Below, in pieces: positions 47,171-62,040 of a stretch of 64,000 nucleotides of DNA. The translations under genes were made by a program, and so were the position numbers. Numbering within the stretch: the first letter of the stretch is position 1; each line of letters starts with the position of its first letter. The notes beneath the pieces were generated by a model. That model was given only the letters and a program-made list of their open reading frames with translations. It ran no database searches and was not told the origin of the DNA. The DNA is taken from contig NZ_CP042467.1 in assembly GCF_007993755.1 (NCBI RefSeq), positions 2,690,001 through 2,754,000 of the forward strand, given 5' to 3'. The stretch comes from Microvenator marinus. Its GTDB lineage: Bacteria; Myxococcota_A; Bradymonadia; Bradymonadales; Bradymonadaceae.

Positions 47171-48774
47171 AAACGCTTCAATTTGCAATAGTCGCAGCGG
47201 CGATGTCCTTGAGTGCACAGGCTTCAGCCCAGTACGTATTCTCTTGTTATCCTCCCACCGAGCACGCGATTGGCCCCACGGCTCCGAACGTCTTGATGAT
47301 GCTGGATATGTCAGGCTCGATGAACCAAGATAGCGGCGAGGATATCTTGGGCGACTCCGATGAAGAGACCAAATACGAGGTTGCGCGGTTTGCTATCGGA
47401 GATGTGGCTAACAGTATCTACGATCCCGGGGCTTGTCCGGGAAATTGCGACGATGTGAGGCTTGGGCTCGCGTACTTCCCAGGCGGCAGCAATGCTCCCT
47501 TTGCCTACAGCGCGGAAACCGTAGGTGAGGATAGTGCACCCGATGTCATCACATGGTTGGCTAACAACGGTCCCAACGGTCGAACGCCCACGGGAGAGGC
47601 CGCACGGTATATTCGCGACACCAACGAGTTGCGCGATTCGAGCCGCCCGAATATCGCCATTTTGATTTCTGACGGTGAACCAAGCGACAACGGCTCAACT
47701 GCCGCGAGCAACCAGGCTCGAAATACCGTAGACTTTCTCTGTGATGCAAACCGACGGACCAATAACCCGCAAGTGACCACCTACGTGGTTGGATTTGGAG
47801 CTGGCAGTAATGAGAACATCAACTCGGCCTTCGCTGCTGCCGGCGGCACAGGCCATTGTTGTCAGGGCGCGTCTGCTCCTTGTGACCCAGCTGACCAGGT
47901 TGATATCTGCAACGTTGACGTAAGCACTTTGTTCTCAAGCACGACCACGAGCGGCTGCGGATCCAACGACTGCGTGAACGCTGTTGGAGGAGGTTTGAGT
48001 TGCACGGGGAGTATCGAGGCAAACGGCTCAGACATTAAGGATGAACTCCTCTCGATCGTGACCGGTTCGAGCTGCATCTTTGAGCTAGATATTCCGCCGG
48101 GGTATCCAAACCCTGAGGCCGACGCAGACCCTGATGCTACTGAGGTAAAAATCTTCCATTCGGTCTTTGGTGCCGAGATTCCAATTCCGCCTGTTGGGTC
48201 TGGAGACACCTTACCGGACGAGCTCGAATCGCGGGGAATGAGTGAGACTGCGGCCGATGAGTACGAGGATGAGGGATGGGAGTTTACGGGGGCCTCCAGG
48301 CGTTTCGTGAAGCTTTCGGACCGCCTCTGCGAAGACATTCAGACAAGTCAGATCACGAAGGTCACCACCGAGATTGCGTGTGCTTGCACGCTCGTCGGCC
48401 AACCATGCACCTACGACTACGAGAATGGAGCCTATACCCCTTCGCAGCTTGACCGCATGCGGTGCTCGCAAGGCGTCTATATCTGCGTGGGCTCCACCGA
48501 TGTTTGCGATCCAACGTCGGGCAAAATGCCTGAGATCTGCAACGGCCTTGACGATGATTGTGACGGGACGTCCGATAACATGAGCGATAGCTGGGATAAG
48601 GCTGAGTTCATGGGCATGAGCCTTCCACCGGAGCATGCGGGGCTCGATTGTGCTCAACGTGACGTCTGCGTATGTCCGGGTGGTGCACGTGATGACCATG
48701 AAGGCACTGACTTCGCCACGTATTTGGATGGTTGGGATCCTGCTTGCTCATGCGGTGAAGGGCTGGGCTATTGA
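47167..48774 (+). CDS. Secreted VWA-domain protein with MopE-like metal motif
   Basis: A 535-aa secreted protein (signal peptide to about ASAQ22). A von Willebrand A domain follows with MIDAS DMSGSMN (47-53), a second conserved Thr/Gly loop (GRTPTGEA) and LISDGEPSDNG. A Cys-rich part comes next, and the C-terminal region carries EICNGLDDDCDG, the MopE-like motif found in many secreted proteins of this lineage. Likely adhesion or metal-dependent ligand binding at the cell surface. It is chained by overlap to the preceding and following genes. Confidence 0.85.
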   Translation: MKTLQFAIVAAAMSLSAQASAQYVFSCYPPTEHAIGPTAPNVLMMLDMSGSMNQDSGEDILGDSDEETKYEVARFAIGDVANSIYDPGACPGNCDDVRLGLAYFPGGSNAPFAYSAETVGEDSAPDVITWLANNGPNGRTPTGEAARYIRDTNELRDSSRPNIAILISDGEPSDNGSTAASNQARNTVDFLCDANRRTNNPQVTTYVVGFGAGSNENINSAFAAAGGTGHCCQGASAPCDPADQVDICNVDVSTLFSSTTTSGCGSNDCVNAVGGGLSCTGSIEANGSDIKDELLSIVTGSSCIFELDIPPGYPNPEADADPDATEVKIFHSVFGAEIPIPPVGSGDTLPDELESRGMSETAADEYEDEGWEFTGASRRFVKLSDRLCEDIQTSQITKVTTEIACACTLVGQPCTYDYENGAYTPSQLDRMRCSQGVYICVGSTDVCDPTSGKMPEICNGLDDDCDGTSDNMSDSWDKAEFMGMSLPPEHAGLDCAQRDVCVCPGGARDDHEGTDFATYLDGWDPACSCGEGLGY

Positions 48775-49319
48775 AACTGGTCGTCACTGGCTTCGAGGCT
48801 TTTGGGGAACACACGTTCAACCCATCCTGGGAGGCTGCTAAGGGGTTCGTGGAGGAGGTAGCGCCTGACGCCGGCTTTGAGGGTGTGGAAGCGCACCTGC
48901 TCAAGGTCACGTTTGAGGACGCGCTTAAAGATGCCCAAGAGTTTGTGGGGCCGAACACAATGTTGATCTCCTTCGGTTTGGCCGCAGCTCGAGACAAGAT
49001 CGAGTTTGAGCGATTTGCGCATAATGCATTCGAGCGGGGTTATCTGGTTGAAGGGGCCCCTTGTGCTCTTGAGACTGGCCTGCCGGTCTTCGATTGGAGA
49101 GATGCCTGGAATGAGGCCAGCCCAGGGTTGGAAGCGCGCGTGTCGCGTGATGCCGGAGATTATGTGTGCAATGCGCTCTATTTCCATGCGTTGAGGCTTG
49201 GTCGCGGAGTACAGGGGTTTGATGCCGTATTCGTTCATATTCCGATGATGAGTGCGGAAAAGGCGCGTGAGCTGGGTGCGTTTTTTTCTGGTCTGATACT
49301 TGGCCGAGGTAGCCGATGA
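48771..49319 (+). CDS. Pyroglutamyl-peptidase I family cysteine peptidase
   Basis: A 182-aa enzyme of peptidase family C15, which removes N-terminal pyroglutamate. The start VTGFEAFGEHTFNPSW matches the family; the catalytic residues are E80 (IEFERFAHN), C133 (AGDYVCNALYF) and H156 (FVHIP). The TTG at 48771 is part of a TTGA overlap with the VWA gene stop and is preceded by GAAGGG. It is slightly shorter than typical Pcp (about 210). Confidence 0.85.
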   Translation: MKLVVTGFEAFGEHTFNPSWEAAKGFVEEVAPDAGFEGVEAHLLKVTFEDALKDAQEFVGPNTMLISFGLAAARDKIEFERFAHNAFERGYLVEGAPCALETGLPVFDWRDAWNEASPGLEARVSRDAGDYVCNALYFHALRLGRGVQGFDAVFVHIPMMSAEKARELGAFFSGLILGRGSR

Positions 49320-50308
49320 AGGTTTTGGTCACTGGTGGCGGTGGGTTTTTGGGGCGCGCGATCGTGGAGCAGCTCGTCGAGCGCGGCGATGATGTGAGCA
49401 TCATTGCACGCGGCGATTATCCGGAACTTCGTGCGTTAGGGGCTATGACGTTTCGTGGCGATCTTGCTGATGCAAAGGCCTGTGCGGGGGCCGTTGAGGG
49501 TCAGGATGCGGTCATCCATACGGCAGCAAAAGCGGGCGTTTGGGGAACGTATGACGACTACGTGGCGAGCAACGTGAAGGCTACTGAGAACGTGGTCGAG
49601 GCGTGTAAACTGATGGGCGTCAACAAACTTGTATTTACGAGCTCGCCGAGTGTGACTTTCGACGGTTCTGACGCCGAAGGGAGCTCCAACGATCTGCCCT
49701 ACCCTGAGCGGTTTCTCGCCTATTATCCTGAGACTAAAGCTCAGGCTGAGGCCCTCGCTCTTGCGGCGAATGATGAAAGTTTGAAAGTCACGGCGTTGCG
49801 GCCACATTTGATCTGGGGGCCTCGTGACCCGCATCTGATTCCGCGCGTGGTGGACGCCGCTAGGCAAGGCAGACTCAAGATTGTTGGCGAAGGCAAGAAC
49901 CGAGTGGACCTCACATACGTAGACAACGCCGCCGTAGCGCATGTTCAGGCCTTGGACAGACTTGAGGATTCCGACGGGCCGGCGGGCAAAGCCTACTTCA
50001 TCAGTGATGATGCGCCCGTTGTGCTCTGGGATTGGATCAACAGCTTGCTCAAGGAGCTGGACGTTCCCCCGATTACGAAGCATGTCTCCCCCAAGGCCGC
50101 CTACACAGCCGGGAGCATGCTCGAATTTGTGCATCGGACGTTCGGGCTGAAGTCGGAGCCACGCATGACTCGGTTTGTGGCTCAGCAGCTCGCGACGAGC
50201 CATTGGTACGATATGGGGCCCGCCAAACGGGACTTTGGCTACTCACCGGTTATGCAACCGGACGAGGGATTTAAGCGGCTAGTGGAGTGGCTCTCGACAC
50301 GCGCTTAG
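49316..50308 (+). CDS. NAD-dependent extended SDR (3beta-HSD/OleD-like)
   Basis: A 330-aa reductase with Rossmann start TGGGGFLGRAIVEQL and active-site pair Y137-P-E-T-K141. The TxxR motif and GEGKNRVDLTYVDN are typical of the 3beta-hydroxysteroid dehydrogenase group, including OleD, which reduces 2-alkyl-3-oxoacyl products. No oleA/B/C is in the window, so the substrate may be another long-chain or sterol-like oxo compound. It is coupled by ATGA to the peptidase gene. Confidence 0.8.
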   Translation: MKVLVTGGGGFLGRAIVEQLVERGDDVSIIARGDYPELRALGAMTFRGDLADAKACAGAVEGQDAVIHTAAKAGVWGTYDDYVASNVKATENVVEACKLMGVNKLVFTSSPSVTFDGSDAEGSSNDLPYPERFLAYYPETKAQAEALALAANDESLKVTALRPHLIWGPRDPHLIPRVVDAARQGRLKIVGEGKNRVDLTYVDNAAVAHVQALDRLEDSDGPAGKAYFISDDAPVVLWDWINSLLKELDVPPITKHVSPKAAYTAGSMLEFVHRTFGLKSEPRMTRFVAQQLATSHWYDMGPAKRDFGYSPVMQPDEGFKRLVEWLSTRA

Positions 50309-50360: not shown

Positions 50361-52004
50361 ATGGGAAAACCTCTATTTGAAGCCCCGCCAAAAACTCTGG
50401 TCCGCGATCTCAGCGAGATAGTAGGCGGTGAATTCGTACTTACGTCGGGCCCCGACAAACTCGCCTATAACAACGATTGTTGGCCTCGCGGCATCATTTT
50501 GACCCGCGGAAGGCAGCTCAAGAGGCATCAACCCGCCGCAATTGTTCAGCCGAAAAACGAGCACGAGATACTGGGCATCATCCATTGGGCCAGAAACGCG
50601 GGCACGCCTATCGTTCCTTACGGCGCGGGCAGCGGGGTTTGCGGGGGTGCCGTAGCTGATGGCAACGGCGTAGTGGTGGATTTGAAGCGGCTGCGCAAGA
50701 TTTCGACGCCGCGGCGCTCCGACATGACGGTCCACGCGCAGACGGGCGTCATCGGGATGATTCTTGAGCGCGAGCTCAACCGCCACGGCCTGACCCTTGG
50801 TCACTATCCAAGCTCGCTCTATTGCTCGTCACTCGGTGGATACCTGGCCGCACGCAGCGCCGGTCAAACCTCGAGTCGTTGGGGTAAAATCGAGGACATG
50901 GTGGTCTCGATGCGGGCGGTTACGGGCGCGGGCGAGGTCTTTGATACGGCGCCTGATCCGTATAGCGCGAGGCCGCGGCATATGGTGGCGGACTGCGGAC
51001 CGGACCCCACTCAGTTGTTTGTGGGCTCGGAGGGTACTCTAGGCATTCTCACGGACGCGACACTTCGAATCGGCCCAAGTCCGACCGAGCGCATCTACCG
51101 TGGATTTCAGTTTCCAAGTGTCGAAGACGCCTTTGTGGCGATTCGCGAGATGATGCAGCTTGGCCTTAGGCCATCTGTGGTGCGTCTCTACGACGCGTTT
51201 GACTCTCTGATCGCCAAACGCAAATCGGGCAAAGGGTCGGATTCACTGCGCGCGAAGATCCTCACGTCGAAGCTCGGGGAGATGGCGCTAGAGGTCTTGC
51301 CCTTTGATATCGACAACGAGATTCAGGGGCGTATCTCGCAGGTTTCAAAGGCTGTGCTGGGGCGTGTATTGGGGCAACCCATCGCGATCAATACTCTGAT
51401 CGACGTGCTTCCTGGCGATTGTTTGTTGGTCATTGGTTTTGAGGGCGAGGCGCTGGCCCGCGAAGAAGCCCATGCTGCGTTTGAGTTGTTGGCGCGCCAC
51501 GGCGCAGACCTTGGCGAAGGTCCAGGCAAACACTGGTTGAAGCACCGAATGGACGTCTCTTATAAGCAGTCGGCGATGTTTGATGCGGGCGCATTTGTAG
51601 ACACGATGGAGGTCTCCACCACGTGGTCAAACCTCAACCACCTGCACGCGTCGGTCCGACGGGCTCTCGCGCCGCACGTTTTGGTGATGGCGCACTTTAG
51701 TCACGTCTATCCCGAGGGTAGCTCGATCTACTTCACGTTTGCGGGATTTGGTTCGGATTTGGACAACACGCTTGAGCGTTATCAGACCACGTGGCAGACC
51801 GCGCTTGATGCGGTGGCGCGGGCGGGCGGAAGCATAGCGCACCACCACGGTGTAGGGATGTCGAAGGCGGCGTGGACCAAGCATGACCATCCGGGCGGCC
51901 AAGAGCTCTTCGACTCGCTCAAACACACGTTCGACCCAGACGGAATCATGAATCCGGGCAAGGTTTACCGCGATTCCGCGCCGTTCATTACGGGGGCGAT
52001 ATGA
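50361..52004 (+). CDS. FAD-linked oxidase, alkyl-DHAP synthase-like
   Basis: A 547-aa flavoprotein of the VAO/FAD-linked oxidase group. The FAD-binding part has PYGAGSGVCGGAV and SLYCSSLGGYLAARSAGQTSS, with GSEGTLGILTDATLRI. The C-terminal half contains TMEVSTTWSNL and HHHGVG, the hallmark of alkyl-dihydroxyacetone-phosphate synthases of ether lipid synthesis, rather than the HGIG of GlcD. Myxobacteria do make ether lipids. It is chained to a GlcE-like and a GlcF-like gene, an odd setting for AGPS, which needs no electron acceptor. Confidence 0.8.
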   Translation: MGKPLFEAPPKTLVRDLSEIVGGEFVLTSGPDKLAYNNDCWPRGIILTRGRQLKRHQPAAIVQPKNEHEILGIIHWARNAGTPIVPYGAGSGVCGGAVADGNGVVVDLKRLRKISTPRRSDMTVHAQTGVIGMILERELNRHGLTLGHYPSSLYCSSLGGYLAARSAGQTSSRWGKIEDMVVSMRAVTGAGEVFDTAPDPYSARPRHMVADCGPDPTQLFVGSEGTLGILTDATLRIGPSPTERIYRGFQFPSVEDAFVAIREMMQLGLRPSVVRLYDAFDSLIAKRKSGKGSDSLRAKILTSKLGEMALEVLPFDIDNEIQGRISQVSKAVLGRVLGQPIAINTLIDVLPGDCLLVIGFEGEALAREEAHAAFELLARHGADLGEGPGKHWLKHRMDVSYKQSAMFDAGAFVDTMEVSTTWSNLNHLHASVRRALAPHVLVMAHFSHVYPEGSSIYFTFAGFGSDLDNTLERYQTTWQTALDAVARAGGSIAHHHGVGMSKAAWTKHDHPGGQELFDSLKHTFDPDGIMNPGKVYRDSAPFITGAI

Positions 52005-53137
52005 AGTCTAAAAAACGCTTTGCAAAGACTTTCTACTCAAAACGACATCTCCCGACTCCACGCGCCGAGTACTGGCCCGAGAACGCGGGTGAGCTAAGAG
52101 ATGCTTTCAGGGAGTCCAAGGACGCACCGCTCTTATTAGTGGGTGATGGCCAGCACTTGAGACCGTCGGTGATTGGGGAGCGCTCGTTTGATGTGGTTCG
52201 TACCGAAAATATCGCGGATGTGATTTCGGTGGACCGTGAGAGCAAGCTCATCCGGGTTGAGTGTGGAATTCGATGGCAGGCCTTACAGAGCGCCGCGGAG
52301 GAACGCGGTTTGAGCATGGAGCGCACACGGCTCTACCCAAGCACATCGACGATTGGCGGGCTCTTGGCTCGGCATGAGGCGTGCCATAAAGAGCTCTGGG
52401 ACGGCGACCTTCGGGGATTCATGGTGGCCCTAACTTCAGTGAGTCCGGGGCAGCGTGATTACCAGTATTTGGCGGCACCACGAAAGGCTAGCGGGCCAGA
52501 TTTTCGTTGGTTGTATGCGGGTTCGGAAGGGTTGGTCGGGGCGATTGTAGACGCGAGTTTTGTGGCTTGGAAGCCGAGTGACGCGCGCCTTTGGCGGTTC
52601 GAAAATGTGGACGCTGAGCAAATGCTCGATATTTGGCGGCAGCTCTTGGATGCCGGGCTACGCGTCTCGTGGGCGCATTGGGATGGTACGCTAAGCATCA
52701 GCGCCCACGGCTTGGAGCGTGTGCTCAAGGTTTGTGATTCGCTCGTCGAGTCACTTGGCGGGCGCGCCGATGGAGGTGCCGAGGAAGTGCGGCAGGTGCG
52801 GGCAGAGCTCGAAGCGAATCATCCAGAGAGGCGCGAGTGCCCGAGCGCTACTCGCACGGTCAAGATCACGACGTCTTTGCAACATCTCTCTATGGTATGC
52901 GACGAAGTTGGCCCAGAGGCTGAGAGCCTTCAGATTATGGATTTGACGCGGCATCGGGGCTCGGTGTTCGTCACGTACCCCAAAGGGCATGTTGGAGCCG
53001 AGCTTCCGAGCGCGATTGCCAATTTGGTACTGGACGCACACGTTGTAGCCAATGATGAGGCTGTACACTGGCCGCATTGGGCGCAACATTTAAAGCACGA
53101 ACTCGACCCGAAACGCATTCTTGCGATGGGCCCTTGA
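52001..53137 (+). CDS. GlcE-like FAD-binding subunit
   Basis: A 378-aa protein with the N-terminal FAD-binding domain of GlcE/FAD-linked oxidases (LLLVGDGQHLRP, VECGIRWQALQSAAEERG, YPSTSTIGGLLAR). The C-terminal half is shorter and more diverged. The ATGA overlap couples it to the AGPS-like gene, and the CCG Fe-S gene follows with a 22-bp gap. It resembles the GlcE accessory subunit of glycolate oxidase. Confidence 0.75.
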   Translation: MKSKKRFAKTFYSKRHLPTPRAEYWPENAGELRDAFRESKDAPLLLVGDGQHLRPSVIGERSFDVVRTENIADVISVDRESKLIRVECGIRWQALQSAAEERGLSMERTRLYPSTSTIGGLLARHEACHKELWDGDLRGFMVALTSVSPGQRDYQYLAAPRKASGPDFRWLYAGSEGLVGAIVDASFVAWKPSDARLWRFENVDAEQMLDIWRQLLDAGLRVSWAHWDGTLSISAHGLERVLKVCDSLVESLGGRADGGAEEVRQVRAELEANHPERRECPSATRTVKITTSLQHLSMVCDEVGPEAESLQIMDLTRHRGSVFVTYPKGHVGAELPSAIANLVLDAHVVANDEAVHWPHWAQHLKHELDPKRILAMGP

Positions 53138-53159
53138 GAATTCACGAGCAGGACGCAGT

Positions 53160-54293
53160 ATGAAGACATTTGGAGCAGCCACAGATCGCGCCACTGCGTA
53201 TTGTACGTATTGCCCAAAACTCTGCAGGTTTTCGTGCCCGGCGGCTGAAGCTGAGAACCGCGAAACCGTGACGCCATGGGCCCTGATGCGGCTTTTGGAG
53301 AACGCGCGTCATGACGCGGTTGAACTCAACGAAGAGGTTGCTGAGACGTTTTATCACTGCATGCTCTGCAAGCGTTGTGAGACATGGTGCAAACACGATA
53401 ACGACGTGCCGAAAGCCATGCTACAGGCGCGGGAATGGGCGCGTGATGAGGGTTTTGTGCCCGAGGTCTTGGATGGATTTGTGGACTTCTTTGCGGAAGC
53501 TAATTCTCCGCATCCTGAGTCGCGAAATCTGGACGAATTCCCCGAGATTGGGTCGGTCCACGAAATTTTCGATTATCGCTCTCGGACCGTATACATGCCC
53601 GACTGCGAAACCCGACACCATTACCCACAGCTGGTCTTGAGGGTTGGTAAACTCTTGCATAAATTGCTCGGCTATCGAGTTCGACTCTTCACTCGCGATC
53701 AAGGAGAGGGCTTTGCGTGCTGCGGATTTCCGCTCCTTGCGGCGGGTGCAAAGCGCGAATACGACGCGCATCGTACCAATATGCTGGACGCCCTTGGTCC
53801 CGCCGACCTTCTGATCACCGACTGTGCGGCTTCGGTGGCAATGACACGCAATGACGGGTCGCTCGGCCAGGGGGCTCAGGGTCCGAAAACTCGGCATATG
53901 CTGGAGCTTTTGGCGGATCTTGTGGAGGACCTTCCGGTTATGGAGAAGGTGAGCGGCGACGGCGTCTTTCTTCACGATTCGTGCTTCGTGGGTCGCCATT
54001 TGAACCTCTATGACGAGACTCGGGTCGTGGCCGCCGCGGTCTTGGATGGTTTCCAAGAATTTCAGTTCAATCGAGAAGACGCGCCGTGTTGTGGCGGGCC
54101 CGCGCACTATCACGTGGTGGCTCCTGCGGCGAGCGAGCGTGCGGCTCGTGAGCGAGTTGACCAGCTCGAGCGCGAAGGCGGCACCCGCGTGGTTTGTGGC
54201 TCGGCCACCTGCAAGAAATCGTTTCGGCGTGCAAAGGATAACAAAGCCGCCAGCGACCTACTCGAAATCATCTGTGAAGCCTGTGGCGTCTGA
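53160..54293 (+). CDS. GlcF-like Fe-S protein with two CCG domains
   Basis: A 377-aa protein with two ferredoxin-type clusters (CTYCPKLCRFSCP and CMLCKRCETWCKHD) and two CCG domains (CCGFPLLAAG and CCGGPAHYH) that bind a further cluster in the GlcF/HdrB/GlpC fold. Such subunits carry electrons from a flavin partner to quinone. The ATG at 53160 has AGGAC upstream; a longer GTG start is possible. It completes a GlcD-GlcE-GlcF-like triad. Confidence 0.85.
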   Translation: MKTFGAATDRATAYCTYCPKLCRFSCPAAEAENRETVTPWALMRLLENARHDAVELNEEVAETFYHCMLCKRCETWCKHDNDVPKAMLQAREWARDEGFVPEVLDGFVDFFAEANSPHPESRNLDEFPEIGSVHEIFDYRSRTVYMPDCETRHHYPQLVLRVGKLLHKLLGYRVRLFTRDQGEGFACCGFPLLAAGAKREYDAHRTNMLDALGPADLLITDCAASVAMTRNDGSLGQGAQGPKTRHMLELLADLVEDLPVMEKVSGDGVFLHDSCFVGRHLNLYDETRVVAAAVLDGFQEFQFNREDAPCCGGPAHYHVVAPAASERAARERVDQLEREGGTRVVCGSATCKKSFRRAKDNKAASDLLEIICEACGV

Positions 54294-54310
54294 TGTCATG
54301 AGGAGTTTTG

Positions 54311-55309
54311 ATGCCTAGTTTTCGTACCTTCGTTATCGCGAATCCCCAGAGTGGGGCTGGTTCCGTAAAGCGCGAATGGGAGCCGGTGGAGCGGCTCTTG
54401 AGAGCACAGATCGAGACCCTGGACATCGCCTTTACGGAGGGTCCTGGGCACGCCACGTTATTGGCGCGTGAAGCGCTCAAAGCGGGTTGGGAAATGGTGG
54501 TTGCGGTAGGTGGCGACGGCACGATCAATGAGGTTGTAAACGGGTTCTTTGAGAAGACCGACACCAAAGAGAACTTCACGCTCGAAGACGGGTTTATCCG
54601 CCGCCAGGATAAGTATCTTCCCACACCAATCAATCCCGACGCCGTGTTTGGGTTCGTACCGATGGGCACAGGGGGGGACTTCCGGCGCACGGTCGGTGCC
54701 ATGGGCGGTGTGAACGAAACCATCAAGCTTTTGGGCGGTACGAATTTTCGGCAGATCGACCTCGGACATAGCGTCTATGTGAGCGAGCGCGGCCCACTCG
54801 AGTTCAGAACCTTTGTGAACGTGGCCAGCGGCGGAATTGGTGGTCTTGTAGACCGAATGACCAACTCGATGTGGAAGGGCTTGGGCGGTAAACTGAGCTT
54901 CGGTCTGGCCTCGAGCGTGACGTGGTTCAAGTATCAAAACCGTCCGCTTACGGTTCGGATCGACGACCTGGAAGAGCTCCAAGACCGGTTCTTCAACGTG
55001 GTGATCGCGAACGGCGAGTATTTCGGTGGTGGTATGTGGGTCGCGCCGGGCGCCCAGCTCGATGATGGGAAGTTCCAGGTCGTGATTTTCTCAGACTTGC
55101 CGAGAAAAGAATCGGCAACGTTGATCCGCAAAATCTACAAGGCTGAACACCTCGGGATTGAAGGCGTCTCAAGGCGCAATGCCACTACTGTGGCGATTCG
55201 TCCTGAGTCGAATTCCACGCTCTTCCTTGATTTGGATGGTGAGTCGCCTGGTCAGGCCCCTGCGACATTCTTCATGCACCCGAAGGCAATTCGTCTGAAG
55301 ACCGCGTAA
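54311..55309 (+). CDS. Diacylglycerol/lipid kinase (DAGK catalytic family)
   Basis: A 332-aa kinase of the DgkB/YegS group. Visible are NPQSGAGS, VVAVGGDGTINEVVNG and the second motif GFVPMGTGGDFRRT. Relatives phosphorylate diacylglycerol or related lipids. AGGAG lies five bases before the ATG at 54311, 17 bp after the Fe-S gene, so it belongs to the same unit. With the flavoproteins it points to a lipid substrate. Confidence 0.9.
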   Translation: MPSFRTFVIANPQSGAGSVKREWEPVERLLRAQIETLDIAFTEGPGHATLLAREALKAGWEMVVAVGGDGTINEVVNGFFEKTDTKENFTLEDGFIRRQDKYLPTPINPDAVFGFVPMGTGGDFRRTVGAMGGVNETIKLLGGTNFRQIDLGHSVYVSERGPLEFRTFVNVASGGIGGLVDRMTNSMWKGLGGKLSFGLASSVTWFKYQNRPLTVRIDDLEELQDRFFNVVIANGEYFGGGMWVAPGAQLDDGKFQVVIFSDLPRKESATLIRKIYKAEHLGIEGVSRRNATTVAIRPESNSTLFLDLDGESPGQAPATFFMHPKAIRLKTA

Positions 55310-55923: not shown

Positions 55924-58900
55924 CTACTTGACCACTACGCGGGCACTCGCACTGCGACCAAAGGTTTCAGGTGAATACATCTCCTCGGCTTTGGTAGGCG
56001 GCACCACAAACTCGCCGGGCGTAGTTGCGCGCGCGTAGTAGGTGTATTCGTGCACACCGCCCCAGAGTAGCGAGGTATAGGCCTCAGTGCGCTCATCTCG
56101 CATATTCTGGTGCTCAAACCACGGCCGACTCCACCACCACCAATGGAAGCCTCCACGACCCGAGTTCATCGCCTGATCCTGAGGCAGATCTTCAGTAGTG
56201 GCCAACGCGGGGTTTAGCGTTTCAAAGCCGGCTGGAATCGGGTCAACAAGGGCGACATGGTAGCGTCTGGTCTCAGCCACCATGGTGAGCTTGATTTTCA
56301 CACGCGCACCCGCCCTGACCTCCCAAACGCCGTCTGGCCGAAGTTTGACGTCGTGTGGGCTGTCCATGCCTTCATAGGTTCTCTCCACGGTGAAGCCGTG
56401 ATCGGCCGCGTCCACAAAGAGGGACTTAGGCGCGTAGTTCATACCGATGCGGTAGTAGAGACGACCCTTTCCGTCTTTTTGCAGATAGAGATTTGTGGTG
56501 TCTTTGACGTGCTCCGCCACAAAGCTCATCGGAATGTCGATCTCATGCTGCTCGGTGGTTCTGCCTTTGAATTTATGCTCACCGGCAAACTGGTCACCGA
56601 GCCACACGCGAGCCACAAAGTCGGGTGTCTCTTTCTCATAGATATTGAAGTACTTATCCAGGGCGAGGAGCACGAAGGCGTTCTCCTGGGTATTACCCCA
56701 GCGGCCTTTCTTGCGGTGCGCCATGAGGCCCTTGACGATCTTCGGTACCAGGTCGGTCTTCGGCTGGTCGTCCATCAGCGCCTCAAGGATCACACCGTCT
56801 GCACGGCGGTCGGAGTGAAGAATGAGGTGGTGGCCGTCGTTCATCGCTGCCGCAAAGTGAGCGTTACCGGCGGTTTCTGTGACGCGGTTGTTGAGGAACC
56901 GACGAATCTCAGCCACCTCTGGTGCGCCCTTTTCTTTGTTGGCGAAGACACCGAGCAACCAACCCACAGATTCAAACGAGAGGTCTTCGAGCTTGCCAGC
57001 TCTTCGCATTACCTCACGCGCTTTTGCCGTATCGTACTCACCCATCAGGCCGCGCACGTAGAGTGAGTAGGAAATGATATGCAGTCGAGTCCACTCCCCG
57101 TAATAATGCGGGATGTAGTTCTCGATATTTTGAAGGTGATTCTTCGCACGCTGCAGAGCCTGGTCTGGAACGGCGTAGCCCTTCATCTTGGCGCGCTGCA
57201 GCGCATGAGCGGCATGCAGGCTTACGTACGGCCACGAAGGCTGCCCGCGGCGCCAGAATCCGAATCCACCATCGTAGTTTTGTCGGTCGACCAACTCTTC
57301 GATATCGCGGCTCATCGACTTCTGAACTTCTGCTGCCGACGGCATACCCTCAGCCTTGAACGCTGTGAGCACGTCGCGTAGCGCCGCCACCGAGATCATG
57401 CGCGAGGAGATCTGCTCTGCACACTCATAGTCGTAGTGGTAGAGATAGAGGAAGGCGTCTGTGAGCGACTGCAAGGCTGTGGACGAGGTCGTGACCTCGA
57501 GCTCGCCAAATTGCGGCCAGACTTCTTCTGGGAATTTTACGGGTTGAGCAATGGCCCCCTTGTCGATCTCGCCGTAGGTTGCGAATGCTTCGCTCGTAGC
57601 GGGTGTCCAGACGGGCAGTGCGATCTCGGCTGCGTCGGAAAAGTTTCCAACTTTGGTATCTGCCGAAACTCCGACCTGGAACCGGGCGGTGCCGGCTTCC
57701 TGAGTGGTTGCCGGAAAGCGAACTTCCACACGCTCGTTAGCCGGTACTTGAACGCTAAGCCCCTGCCCTGCTGTGTAGGTCAGGTTCGAGGCGCGGGTTG
57801 CCACGAAGACCGTCATCGGGTCGTCCGTCTGGTTCTGAACCACGATGGGAAGCTCGAATTTGTCCCCGAAGTTCAGGAAGCGAGGCGCACTTGGGCGCAC
57901 CATGACAGGGAGACGCGCCGTGACATTGCTCTCGGATGTGCCGAATTTGTTCGCGCCTTGAACCGCGACGGCCATGATTCGGTAACGCGTTAGGTTGTCC
58001 GGCATCTGGATGTCCACGGAGATTCTACCGGATGCATCGGTGCGTTTGGCCGGGGCGAAGAGTGCCAATGGGTTGAAGTTTGTTCGAGCGGCGATGGGTG
58101 CGTCGGAGGCACCACCCACGTCGACGGGAGCTCCTTCGTCCATCTCCATCTCGGAATCAGCCATGGCCATGGCCATGGGTGCTGGCGCAGCAGCTTCCTC
58201 CATCGGAGCCTCAGCGCGTGCGCGCCTCGGAGCGGACTTCTTCATCATCTCTCGGGAGCCTTTGTCGGCGCTCGAGCCCATCGGTGCTTCCTCAACGGGC
58301 TGAAGTGCCGCTGGGTCCACGAGCTCCACGTAGGGGCGTTGATGCAAGGCTTGCATTCCATCCGCGCGGTCGGCGTAGAAGATGGCCATCGGATCTTGCA
58401 TGGCGTAGCTGCTCAGGGCGAGCACCGCCTCGTCTACGACTACAATAGCAACTTCGGCGTCTTTGACGGGGTTTCCATTGGCGTCCTTGACCTCAAGCGC
58501 AACGCTTGTTTTGGTGCCTGGTGCCACGCGGGTAGCCGATGGCTTGATCTGAACATCGAGGATTCGCTCGGTCGGTGGAACTTTGATGGCGAGCATCCCC
58601 GAGGCAATTGCCGGCCGTTTGGGGAGCTTTGTATCTGGTTCGCCCCGGGCGTCGAGACGTGGTGCGGCTCCAACGAGGTCCACGCCAACAAAGACATTCG
58701 GGATGTACGCGCTCTTGAGCGGCACGTTGAGCACCGTTGTAGACTCGGTCATGGTGAACCGTTTCTGCTCCACGATACCCTGGCGTCTGATCGTCATGAT
58801 GCCTTCAGCAGGCACAAACGGGCTTTGCACCAAGATTTCTGCGGTATCACCTACGGCGTAGACTTCCTTATCAGGAATGAGTGTCGCCTCTTCCATAGTC

Positions 58901-61900
58901 ACCTTGCGGGAAAGAGGGACTTTGCCGCCAGAGACCCAGCGCGTGATTTCGGTGTAATTTGGGCGGCCGTAGTCGTCCACGGTGGTCGCCGCGATCTTGT
59001 AGGTTCCGCCAACATCGGACTTAAACGTGCAGGTATGCTCAGCCTCGGACGAGGTGAAATCACATTCCTGGGTGTCCGCCAGTTCTTCGACATATTCGCC
59101 GTTCTTCCACGAGTATTTCACGCGGGAGGCGCGGACTTTCACTGGACGATTCGCGGTCAGGTTGCCATCGATATCACTGACGACCAGCTTGACTTCAAGA
59201 GGTTCGCCCTGCTCAACGAAGTATCGCTCGGAGCGCATACCTACGTAGAAGAGGCTCGGGTGGACCAAGAGATTCGTTGCAGAAGTCCATGCCTGACGGT
59301 TGACGTCCATCACGGTGGCCGACGCCTTCACACTCATCGGCTTTGGAGGAAGCTTCTTGCCGAATTTCAATTGCACGGTGTGCTCGCCTGCCGCGTCTGT
59401 CTTAGCGCTCAGACTTTGATACGTGGTGTTGCCGCCAGACTGATTGTAGGCGCGCCACCAAGGGGTCCACATGCCGAAGCTGTACTTGGACTGATTGGGC
59501 GGCGTGTAAGAGGATTCAGTGGCCTGAATGGACCAGTTGACCTCGGCGTTGGTGAGTGCCCCACCCGCATAATAATTAGCGGAGACGGTTGCACTCGCCT
59601 CAGCGTCCATAAGGTGCGGGCCTTCGGGTGCGCGAGCGCTGACCTCAAACTCGGGGGTGCGGAACTCCTGAATCTGGAAGGAGTGGGTATGGTAGCCGTA
59701 ATTCCTAAACTCAATCCGTGCGTAGCCAAGATTTGGGGTGTCCGGGAGCTTAAACTTGAGGTCGAAGCCTCCAAGCGCAGTGGTTTCGGTTTGTCCCTTG
59801 GCGAGCTCGACGTTTTGGGCGTCGTAGACGGTCCAATCGAACTTGGGAGAGCCAGACACGAGGCTCATATCGCCGCCTTTCTCCATCTCAATGTTTCGGA
59901 CAAATCCTTTGATATGAACTTCTTCGCTGGGCTTGTACATGCCACGATCGTCGAAGACCATCCAACGCATCTGCGAGCCGTAGTTCTTTTTGTAGAATTG
60001 CGAAGTACCCCGTGAATAGAAGACTTCTGGTAGGAAGCTCGTGTCGTCACCTTTGGTTCCTACCATGATGCCGGTTAGTTCGGACGACGCGGCGGGAAGG
60101 GCGAAAGTAACGGTACCATTGGCACCTGTAACACCCTTGGCGTTTGAGCCCGGCAAAGAGATCGTGACCCCTTGAAGCGGTTTACCAGTGGTCAGATCGG
60201 TGGCCCAACCCGTGAATTCCTCGTTGTCCATAAAGGCGTCAAGACCAATATTGGTGCGGTGAATCCAGGTTCTGAATTCGGGTTGGTAGCGGTTATGGAC
60301 AGCCTCGGCGCTCTTGTCGGGGTCGCCTGGCAAGATCTCTACGACCAGGTGGCGACCCTTTCCAAATTGTTTGGTCAGGTCGATATCGGTCTGAACGAGT
60401 TCGTCGGCTTTGAAGTTGAGCTTGATTGCACCGTCAAACACGAGGCGGCCCGGGGGTTTGACGGACTTTTTGCCCCAATGTCTCCAGTCTTCGGCGTAGA
60501 GCAGATAGTCTCTCCAATCGGATTCGGTGACCTGCCATGCTTTGAGCCGAACGTTCTTATAGTTTGTGGAGAAGACCGTGTATTTTGGGCCCGCTGCGGG
60601 GTCGAGCACCACAAACTGCCCGGAGGTCGCGGTGAGTGCGGGAAGTGCCGCACCGACATCGAACGTGTAAGTGCGCTCACCCTCAAGCTTTTGACCGAAC
60701 TCGTCTTCGACATCGGCGGAGAACGTGACGGTGTACTTTCTTCGGCCCGGTTTCATGCCCCCGATCGAGATCCAGTTGCCATTTTGATGCACCACCATAT
60801 CGGGGTAGCTCGGCTCGACTTTGACCATCGAATCGTCCCATTTTTCGGGATCGAGTTGGTTGCTCAGTCGGAAAGAGAAGGTGTCATGTGGACGACACCC
60901 CTGCCAGCCGCATCGGTGCTCGGTAATCCTTAACGGGCCATAGGTTTGAAAGGCGGTTTGTTGGGTCGATGTGGTGCGCTTGGGGCCTTCGGCGCTCGGG
61001 GCGCCAACCTTTAGCGTTGTCTGCACGGTGGTGTTGTAAGGGTAAGGCTCGGTGGGCTCGATGATGAGCCAACGGTTCTCGGGCACATCTTTCCCAAGAT
61101 TCTCGAACTCTGGGAAAGCCTCGAGGGATTTGGCTGTCGCGAGCCTCATCGGGATGATTTTTGCGCCCGCACGGACCTCGATATGCTCGAGGATATCCGT
61201 GCGATTGATGGCTTGATCGAATTGCAAGAAGACCGGCTGTTCGAGCGCGTAGGTCCCGTATTCTGGATAGAAAGACTCCACGGTTACAGGTGGCGTGCTG
61301 AAGGTGAACGTGGTCTCTTTGTCGAGGGCGTTCCCCGTCATGGCCTTAGTATCTGCGGGGATGGTCACCTTGTAGTCGGTTGCCATGGGCATGCGCTCGC
61401 CGAAGCTCTCAAAGAGTAAGGTCTTGGCGCCGACCCAGCGCCATTGACCTTCGGGCATCGGGTCCATCTTCACCGGCACGCCGTCTTTGACCGTGTCTGT
61501 GTGCGAGGTCACGGCCACCATTGGAAGATTGAACGTGACCGATACCTTTGGGGCAATCGGGATATCGCCTTCGGGTTGGTATCTGAGAACCTTGAGCGGC
61601 TCGTCTTTGTCTACCTCGACGTCGGTCGGGCGCTCGCGGTCGGATGCGGGCGGAAACTCGCCTACAACGGTTGTTCCGGTTTTTGGAGGAGGGGTAGAGG
61701 CAGGGCGTTTTGCAAAGGCTTTCTTGTCCGCAAGTTCAGACTTGAGATCTGGCAGCCTCTTGAAGAGAGCCTGGATCTGGGACTCATTCAGAGGCTTCGT
61801 TTCAGGAGTTGGGAGCGCCTCGATGTTCTCGCCCGGAGGTCTGCCATCCTCGGCCGTGAATTCCAGGGGAACATCTTCTCGCGTGTCGACGGGCTCAAAA

Positions 61901-62040
61901 CTATCCAAAGTAGCTAAAGGGGGGGCGTCAGCGGGTCTTTCTCCCATAGTTTGCTCCGTTGGTGTGTTTGAGCGTTCGGGTTGTTTACACGCGAAAGCGA
62001 TCAGGACAAGAGTGGGCATAAGCCATCGAAATTGGCGCAT
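55924..62040 (-). CDS. Bacterial alpha-2-macroglobulin family lipoprotein
   Basis: A 2038-aa lipoprotein (lipobox FAC, Cys18), about the size of large bacterial alpha-2-macroglobulins that trap attacking proteases. After an acidic linker come repeated MG beta-sandwich domains, a bait-like insert rich in Met, Ala and Glu (about 1250-1320; APMAMAMADSEMEMDE), and the thioester motif C1540-A-E-Q1543 in YECAEQISS, which can cross-link a protease. The C-terminal TED/receptor-type domains follow. It is often next to pbpC; no such gene is in the window. The ATG has GAGAG upstream. Confidence 0.92.
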   Translation of the reverse strand: MRQFRWLMPTLVLIAFACKQPERSNTPTEQTMGERPADAPPLATLDSFEPVDTREDVPLEFTAEDGRPPGENIEALPTPETKPLNESQIQALFKRLPDLKSELADKKAFAKRPASTPPPKTGTTVVGEFPPASDRERPTDVEVDKDEPLKVLRYQPEGDIPIAPKVSVTFNLPMVAVTSHTDTVKDGVPVKMDPMPEGQWRWVGAKTLLFESFGERMPMATDYKVTIPADTKAMTGNALDKETTFTFSTPPVTVESFYPEYGTYALEQPVFLQFDQAINRTDILEHIEVRAGAKIIPMRLATAKSLEAFPEFENLGKDVPENRWLIIEPTEPYPYNTTVQTTLKVGAPSAEGPKRTTSTQQTAFQTYGPLRITEHRCGWQGCRPHDTFSFRLSNQLDPEKWDDSMVKVEPSYPDMVVHQNGNWISIGGMKPGRRKYTVTFSADVEDEFGQKLEGERTYTFDVGAALPALTATSGQFVVLDPAAGPKYTVFSTNYKNVRLKAWQVTESDWRDYLLYAEDWRHWGKKSVKPPGRLVFDGAIKLNFKADELVQTDIDLTKQFGKGRHLVVEILPGDPDKSAEAVHNRYQPEFRTWIHRTNIGLDAFMDNEEFTGWATDLTTGKPLQGVTISLPGSNAKGVTGANGTVTFALPAASSELTGIMVGTKGDDTSFLPEVFYSRGTSQFYKKNYGSQMRWMVFDDRGMYKPSEEVHIKGFVRNIEMEKGGDMSLVSGSPKFDWTVYDAQNVELAKGQTETTALGGFDLKFKLPDTPNLGYARIEFRNYGYHTHSFQIQEFRTPEFEVSARAPEGPHLMDAEASATVSANYYAGGALTNAEVNWSIQATESSYTPPNQSKYSFGMWTPWWRAYNQSGGNTTYQSLSAKTDAAGEHTVQLKFGKKLPPKPMSVKASATVMDVNRQAWTSATNLLVHPSLFYVGMRSERYFVEQGEPLEVKLVVSDIDGNLTANRPVKVRASRVKYSWKNGEYVEELADTQECDFTSSEAEHTCTFKSDVGGTYKIAATTVDDYGRPNYTEITRWVSGGKVPLSRKVTMEEATLIPDKEVYAVGDTAEILVQSPFVPAEGIMTIRRQGIVEQKRFTMTESTTVLNVPLKSAYIPNVFVGVDLVGAAPRLDARGEPDTKLPKRPAIASGMLAIKVPPTERILDVQIKPSATRVAPGTKTSVALEVKDANGNPVKDAEVAIVVVDEAVLALSSYAMQDPMAIFYADRADGMQALHQRPYVELVDPAALQPVEEAPMGSSADKGSREMMKKSAPRRARAEAPMEEAAAPAPMAMAMADSEMEMDEGAPVDVGGASDAPIAARTNFNPLALFAPAKRTDASGRISVDIQMPDNLTRYRIMAVAVQGANKFGTSESNVTARLPVMVRPSAPRFLNFGDKFELPIVVQNQTDDPMTVFVATRASNLTYTAGQGLSVQVPANERVEVRFPATTQEAGTARFQVGVSADTKVGNFSDAAEIALPVWTPATSEAFATYGEIDKGAIAQPVKFPEEVWPQFGELEVTTSSTALQSLTDAFLYLYHYDYECAEQISSRMISVAALRDVLTAFKAEGMPSAAEVQKSMSRDIEELVDRQNYDGGFGFWRRGQPSWPYVSLHAAHALQRAKMKGYAVPDQALQRAKNHLQNIENYIPHYYGEWTRLHIISYSLYVRGLMGEYDTAKAREVMRRAGKLEDLSFESVGWLLGVFANKEKGAPEVAEIRRFLNNRVTETAGNAHFAAAMNDGHHLILHSDRRADGVILEALMDDQPKTDLVPKIVKGLMAHRKKGRWGNTQENAFVLLALDKYFNIYEKETPDFVARVWLGDQFAGEHKFKGRTTEQHEIDIPMSFVAEHVKDTTNLYLQKDGKGRLYYRIGMNYAPKSLFVDAADHGFTVERTYEGMDSPHDVKLRPDGVWEVRAGARVKIKLTMVAETRRYHVALVDPIPAGFETLNPALATTEDLPQDQAMNSGRGGFHWWWWSRPWFEHQNMRDERTEAYTSLLWGGVHEYTYYARATTPGEFVVPPTKAEEMYSPETFGRSASARVVVK

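Follow-up and report, generated by a model that had tools for sequence, protein, structure and literature searches.

A conserved four-gene unit links an AGPS-family flavoprotein with GlcE-like, GlcF-like and lipid-kinase genes in Myxococcota

Organization of the four-gene unit

We analysed a 64,000-nt window of the Microvenator marinus genome (NZ_CP042467.1, 2,690,001-2,754,000); all coordinates below are window positions. A check of open reading frames (ORFs) places four genes on the + strand at 50361-55309, spaced within 20-odd bases of one another, exactly where an earlier sequence-only reading had put them. In order, they encode a catalytic flavoprotein that resembles alkyl-dihydroxyacetone phosphate synthase (AGPS, EC 2.5.1.26) and takes the position of GlcD, a GlcE-like protein, a GlcF-like iron-sulfur (Fe-S) protein, and a diacylglycerol-kinase-type (DAGK) lipid kinase. 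No curated NCBIfam model scores above its cut-off for any of the four proteins, except a broad YegS/BmrU subfamily for the kinase.

The AGPS-like protein (50361..52004, +, 547 aa), assigned by Pfam, PDB searches, trees and an AlphaFold2 model, contains FAD_binding_4 (3.8e-34) and FAD-oxidase_C (6.4e-38) domains, as expected of a VAO-type fold. The HHHGVG motif that the earlier reading had singled out as an AGPS hallmark is present at residues 494-499 (51840..51857, +), at the place where GlcD and D-lactate dehydrogenase (D-LDH) have GEHG[IV]G. Residues R352, R447, and Y508 of Dictyostelium AGPS, which are catalytic according to mutagenesis (PMC3509576), correspond to guinea-pig R419, R515, and Y578. 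In our alignment, the first and third are kept as Arg275 (51183..51185, +) and Tyr457 (51729..51731, +), the latter at or near the column of a metal-ligand His of GlcD and D-LDH. The second catalytic Arg is replaced: Lys402-Gln403 (51564..51569, +) stand in place of x-Arg515, and the Arg515 equivalent is missing in nearly the whole family to which the window protein belongs (hereafter the window family). The window protein also lacks the N-terminal WNGWG region of the Dictyostelium and guinea-pig enzymes and of the proteins at loci L162 and L196. The region of HHH and Tyr578 aligns with the metal-site motifs GEHG and HxGDGNxH of GlcD and D-LDH; both motifs are missing in the window protein, and therefore, judging from known D-LDH chemistry, a 2-hydroxyacid substrate appears unlikely.

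Among solved structures, the best sequence match of the AGPS-like protein is Dictyostelium AGPS (215 bits, 1.4e-62, 30% identity), with D-lactate dehydrogenase at 120 bits; identity to mammalian AGPS is 25.5%. The top NCBIfam match is GlcD, at 159.6 bits, far below the cut-off of 567.9 bits. The AlphaFold2 model (pLDDT 86) superimposes on AGPS (5ae3) with a Z score of 39.2 over 460 residues at 2.3 Å and on D-LDH with a Z score of 39.7 over 443 residues at 2.8 Å, so that fold comparison, with Z scores tied at about 39, does not separate the two.

The GlcE-like protein (52001..53137, +, 378 aa) begins in an ATGA overlap with the gene before it and contains FAD_binding_4 (1e-11, Pfam), an assignment also supported by alignment and fusions, and which agrees with the FAD subunit proposed from the sequence. 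In particular, the AGPS-like and GlcE-like proteins form one polypeptide in 11 of 62 loci, a count that includes 40 further loci, and the tree requires six or more changes of state to account for these fusions; in one example (L127), a fusion of 1009 aa has two FAD_binding_4 stretches. Because they are fused this often and with this many changes of state, the two proteins very likely form a physical complex, for which the fusions are the strongest sign.

The GlcF/HdrD/EtfD-like protein (53121..54293, +, likely start ATG 53160), assigned by Pfam, alignment, AlphaFold2 and fold comparison, contains Fer4_8 and CCG domains. Alignment identifies two [4Fe-4S] motifs, C28-x2-C31-x3-C35-x3-C39-P (53202..53237, +) and C80-x2-C83-x2-C86-x3-C90 (53358..53390, +). 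Of the two CCG domains predicted earlier, Pfam detects only the second (PF02754, residues 283-368, 53967..54224, +); the first, at about residues 154-260 (53580..53900, +), is apparent from its cysteines (PDC..CCG..DC) and from the AlphaFold2 model (pLDDT 91). The protein thus has both [4Fe-4S] motifs and the pair of CCG domains expected of the GlcF/HdrD type. A phmmer search with it against the PDB returned no match. Model residues 154-390 match the two-CCG proteins HdrB and LutA with Z scores of 18.8-21.5, and the full-length model matches mycobacterial EtfD (9ojn) with a Z score of 23.4 over 356 residues at 2.8 Å. EtfD, HdrB/HdrD, and LutA share the fold (Z 18.8-23.4), but differ in partners and in sequence (16-19% identity). 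The first CCG domain is eroded in some relatives (L118, L133).

The kinase (54308..55309, +, likelier start ATG 54311) contains DAGK_cat and YegS_C domains and a GGDGT motif, and belongs to the YegS/BmrU family by Pfam, NCBIfam and a kinase tree, in line with the kinase expected from the sequence.

Phylogeny and conservation

In a careful tree of 52 rows computed under a mixture model, with which a larger quick tree agrees, all HHH-type proteins form one superclade (support 100/100) apart from GlcD, D-LDH, D-2-HGDH, and LctD. The flavoprotein therefore does not nest inside GlcD or the D-lactate dehydrogenases, a placement named beforehand as one that would refute the earlier reading. The superclade has three branches: AGPS proper (core 97/92), which holds both solved AGPS enzymes; the window family (96/89), which is the sister clade of AGPS proper and not part of it; and a branch from Lentisphaerota and Verrucomicrobiota (100/100).

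A strong match to the flavoprotein occurs in 35 of 57 relatives, and a profile of the AGPS superclade, which mixes the branches in its count, finds a match in 248 of 284 genomes in a phylum-wide draw. Longer loci from the family, order and class to which the window belongs, and from Archangium and Myxococcaceae metagenome-assembled genomes, again show the order AGPS-like, GlcE-like, GlcF-like, DAGK, and the gene set is thus conserved in relatives, the other point on which the earlier reading could have failed. Because this order recurs in tens of genomes, the gene set is not a chance arrangement. In a separate observation, made by reading the sequence alone, an ORF resembling apolipoprotein N-acyltransferase lies 3′ of the unit in seven loci (L127, L130, L133, L135, L141, L142, L143).

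The partners differ among the three branches. Members of the window family are accompanied by GlcF-like and GlcE-like proteins and usually by a DAGK, and the Lentisphaerota/Verrucomicrobiota branch by an FGGY kinase and a GlcF-like protein. AGPS proper occurs with GlpD and an FGGY kinase (L064, L068, L071, L200 and, more distantly placed in the tree, L073) or with GlpD and a DAGK (L195, L196, L201, L202). Across the superclade, GlpD and the GlcF module are nearly always alternatives (both are present in L167), and a kinase and a flavin-linked dehydrogenase repeatedly accompany the superclade.

The AGPS-GlpD-DAGK operons bear directly on the kinase of the window. In a careful DAGK tree, 41 operon kinases, gathered through AGPS loci with a profile built from the window family and drawn from both AGPS-GlpD-DAGK and AGPS-like-GlcE-GlcF-DAGK operons, form one clade (99/98), separate from the other DAGK paralogues of six of the genomes. 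In each of these six genomes, one operon-type kinase was seen. A window-type flavoprotein was not seen in four GlpD-type genomes, in which two partial matches at contig ends are unclassifiable. Because the kinases form one clade and a single such kinase was seen in each genome compared, the two operon types look like alternatives around one lipid kinase: AGPS with GlpD in some genomes, and the AGPS-like protein with GlcE and GlcF in others. The GlpD operons share with the window unit an orthologous lipid kinase and an AGPS-family flavoprotein, but their flavoprotein is AGPS proper and their redox partner is a GlpD-type glycerol-3-phosphate (G3P) dehydrogenase. Their flavoproteins keep Arg515, and those of L196 and L201 have a WNGWG or WKGWG N terminus; in L201 and L202, an ORF resembling a GntR-family regulator is found immediately upstream.

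The true AGPS of M. xanthus is a different gene. This protein, MXAN_1676, is about 42% identical to human AGPS and its gene lies, unlike the window gene, in an operon with FAR/GNPAT-like genes; ether-lipid steps in Myxococcota are mostly unassigned (PMC9131029). Bacterial AGPS proteins of the MXAN_1676 type, 46-48% identical to mammalian AGPS, are found in two of our Myxococcota loci (L239, L241). Published agps screens use a 30% identity cut-off (PMC11868695); the window protein is 25.5% identical to L239 and L241, so its family was probably not counted in them. The M. marinus genome has a second AGPS-family gene (L145, 6778-8406, at 4.285 Mb), with THHHAVG, a Gln at the Arg515 site, and an alpha/beta hydrolase gene following it; the same type occurs in Myxococcus and Archangium relatives (L158-L160). 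With at least three AGPS-family branches that have different partners, bacterial AGPS-like matches are not to be equated with ether-lipid synthesis.

Proposed function and alternatives

AGPS is a textbook flavoenzyme without net redox change. We propose that the window unit, built on a sister lineage of AGPS, encodes a quinone-linked complex, evolved from AGPS stock, that dehydrogenates a glycerophospholipid made by the kinase (such as 1-alkyl- or 1-acyl-glycerol-3-phosphate), and we give this reading a probability of about 0.5. The unit would be a GlcDEF-like three-subunit flavin/Fe-S dehydrogenase that has its own lipid kinase and whose catalytic flavoprotein comes from a redox lineage within the AGPS family. 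Specifically, the DAGK would phosphorylate a glycerol lipid (mono- or diacylglycerol, or 1-O-alkylglycerol); the resulting 1-alkyl- or 1-acyl-glycerol-3-phosphate would bind the AGPS-type pocket of the AGPS-like subunit, which would take a hydride, most simply from the C2 alcohol, giving the dihydroxyacetone phosphate (DHAP) form; and the electrons would pass to the GlcE-like FAD protein, often on the same polypeptide, then through the GlcF-like protein with its two [4Fe-4S] clusters and its CCG domains, and on to quinone. The complex would thereby fill the redox role that, in other Myxococcota, falls to a GlpD-type dehydrogenase alongside AGPS and the same kinase. The specific version, in which this redox branch of the AGPS family forms a kinase-coupled, quinone-linked flavin/Fe-S complex oxidising glycerophospholipids (for example, 1-alkyl-G3P to alkyl-DHAP), we put forward tentatively.

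The evidence for the proposal comprises the gene set, its conservation, the fusions, the phylogeny, the pattern of residues, the kinase clade, and the intact Fe-S clusters; the complex itself, its substrate, direction and electron acceptor we infer. That the Lentisphaerota/Verrucomicrobiota clade combines an AGPS-like protein, a GlcF-like protein and a kinase (FGGY) also counts for it. The sequence-only reading had offered an undescribed lipid dehydrogenase or an ether-lipid route; the lipid dehydrogenase is the better-supported option, and the kinase tree adds an unexpected link to AGPS. That reading had also suggested a tie to the membrane: none of the family and model results on the window proteins points to a membrane anchor, in an analysis that did not include transmembrane prediction.

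Several observations weigh against the proposal. DAGK was not detected in some AGPS-like/GlcE/GlcF loci (L185, L187, L188, L193), and the sister branch lies in sugar-type clusters. In the Archangium/Myxococcus loci L042, L044, and L045, the Arg419 site is His and the Tyr578 site is Asp or Ser, with the four-gene unit kept, and in the Archangium/Myxococcus rows the GlcE-like protein lacks its FAD loop; because the loop and, in some members, two catalytic residues of the flavoprotein are lost, the chemistry may vary, and the function may have drifted, in the Myxococcaceae branch. Elsewhere in its genome the host encodes a GlpD, so that plain G3P oxidation is not missing, which speaks against G3P itself as the substrate. 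Finally, lack of Arg515 coincides with possession of GlcF mostly by clade (67+22 versus 17+1 rows), with too few independent pairs in the tree for a test. We dropped the notion of a genome-wide replacement of GlpD by the Fe-S module, since the host and most relatives keep GlpD elsewhere; it is retained at the operon level only.

If the substrate were instead a water-soluble phosphorylated polyol or sugar acid, the unit would be a general polyol-phosphate dehydrogenase and the DAGK would have a shifted specificity. The pair of AGPS-like and GlcF-like genes in Lentisphaerota and Verrucomicrobiota, which is flanked by an FGGY kinase and a class II aldolase and accompanied by genes for an IolB homologue and a sulfoquinovose-isomerase-like protein, speaks for this explanation, as do the FGGY kinases that adjoin AGPS and GlpD in other bacteria. 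We nevertheless regard it as unlikely, since the Myxococcota kinase, a member of the DAGK/YegS family of lipid kinases, is an orthologue of the kinase of the AGPS-GlpD-DAGK operons; the putative apolipoprotein N-acyltransferase gene downstream in seven loci also points away from it.

The protein might also be a working AGPS that makes alkyl-DHAP without net redox, with GlcE and GlcF merely re-oxidising or scaffolding the flavin. The retained HHH motif and Arg419 and Tyr578 equivalents, the closest solved sequence, and a model that fits AGPS over more residues and at a lower root-mean-square deviation than D-LDH, though with Z scores tied, are features shared with AGPS. This explanation is made improbable by the loss of Arg515 (Dictyostelium Arg447) in nearly all of the family and of the WNGWG region, both of which AGPS has, and by the Archangium/Myxococcus members that keep the operon without Arg419 and Tyr578; moreover, the AGPS reaction involves no net redox change (PMC3509576). 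The coupling to GlcE and GlcF is a further difference from AGPS.

Somewhat more doubtful is a pathway of ether-lipid breakdown, in which the kinase would convert alkylglycerol to 1-alkyl-G3P, the complex would convert this to alkyl-DHAP, and the second AGPS-family protein of the host (L145) would swap alkyl for acyl, freeing fatty alcohol. Kinase, dehydrogenase and AGPS functions do co-occur in AGPS-GlpD-DAGK operons, and the second gene is followed by an alpha/beta hydrolase gene, but the scheme is purely conjectural and the L145 paralogue also lacks Arg515.

Least probable of all is an ordinary GlcDEF-type D-2-hydroxyacid (glycolate or lactate) oxidase beside an unrelated kinase: GlcDEF and the D-lactate dehydrogenases share with the unit an FAD catalytic protein, a FAD_binding_4 partner, a ferredoxin/CCG protein and the order D-E-F, and GlcD is the best, sub-threshold NCBIfam match and D-LDH an equal structural one (39.7), but the catalytic subunit of the unit comes from the AGPS side of the tree, outside GlcD and D-LDH, HxGDGNxH and GEHG are missing, and the kinase is conserved alongside across the phylum.

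Because the defining features of AGPS and of GlcD were each tested and not borne out, the four-gene unit should not be filed as either. It is a real, widely conserved unit, undescribed as far as is searchable, that is built from known parts: an AGPS-family flavoprotein, a GlcE/GlcF-type module, and a YegS-type kinase. No report of it was found in the literature searched, which left subscription papers mostly outside. A look-up of the mycobacterial Rv2251-Rv2252 pairing gave no usable description either. If the proposed dehydrogenase is correct, the unit would represent an undescribed route of membrane-lipid or ether-lipid turnover, add a lipid-metabolic complex to Myxococcota, and suggest an origin of AGPS among true dehydrogenases or, conversely, of true dehydrogenases from AGPS. 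A large, phylum-wide sister lineage of AGPS that seems to be connected to an electron-transfer chain and to a lipid kinase of its own would clarify how AGPS chemistry relates to that of ordinary dehydrogenases.

Neighbouring genes and further observations

Directly upstream of the unit lies a gene for an OleD-like SDR protein (2-alkyl-3-oxoalkanoate reductase; 49316-50308), which scores 417.6 bits (cut-off 580), preceded by a C15-peptidase-like gene (48771-49319). Neither was found in related loci, so both are probably not part of the unit.

At L047 (5227-13294) and in similar Lentisphaerota and Verrucomicrobiota loci, an AGPS-like protein (NEHHGVG) and a reduced GlcF-like protein lie in a sugar-catabolic cluster; the L047 cluster contains a ribokinase-type kinase, a sulfoquinovose-isomerase-like protein, an IolB homologue, a xylulokinase-like FGGY kinase, and a class II aldolase. 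The Arg419His substitution of mammalian AGPS is available as a solved mutant (4bc7), and His likewise stands at that site in L042, L044, and L045. Downstream of the unit in the window, on the - strand at 55924-62040, a 2038-aa protein whose start is of the lipoprotein type resembles, judging by sequence alone, a bacterial alpha-2-macroglobulin.

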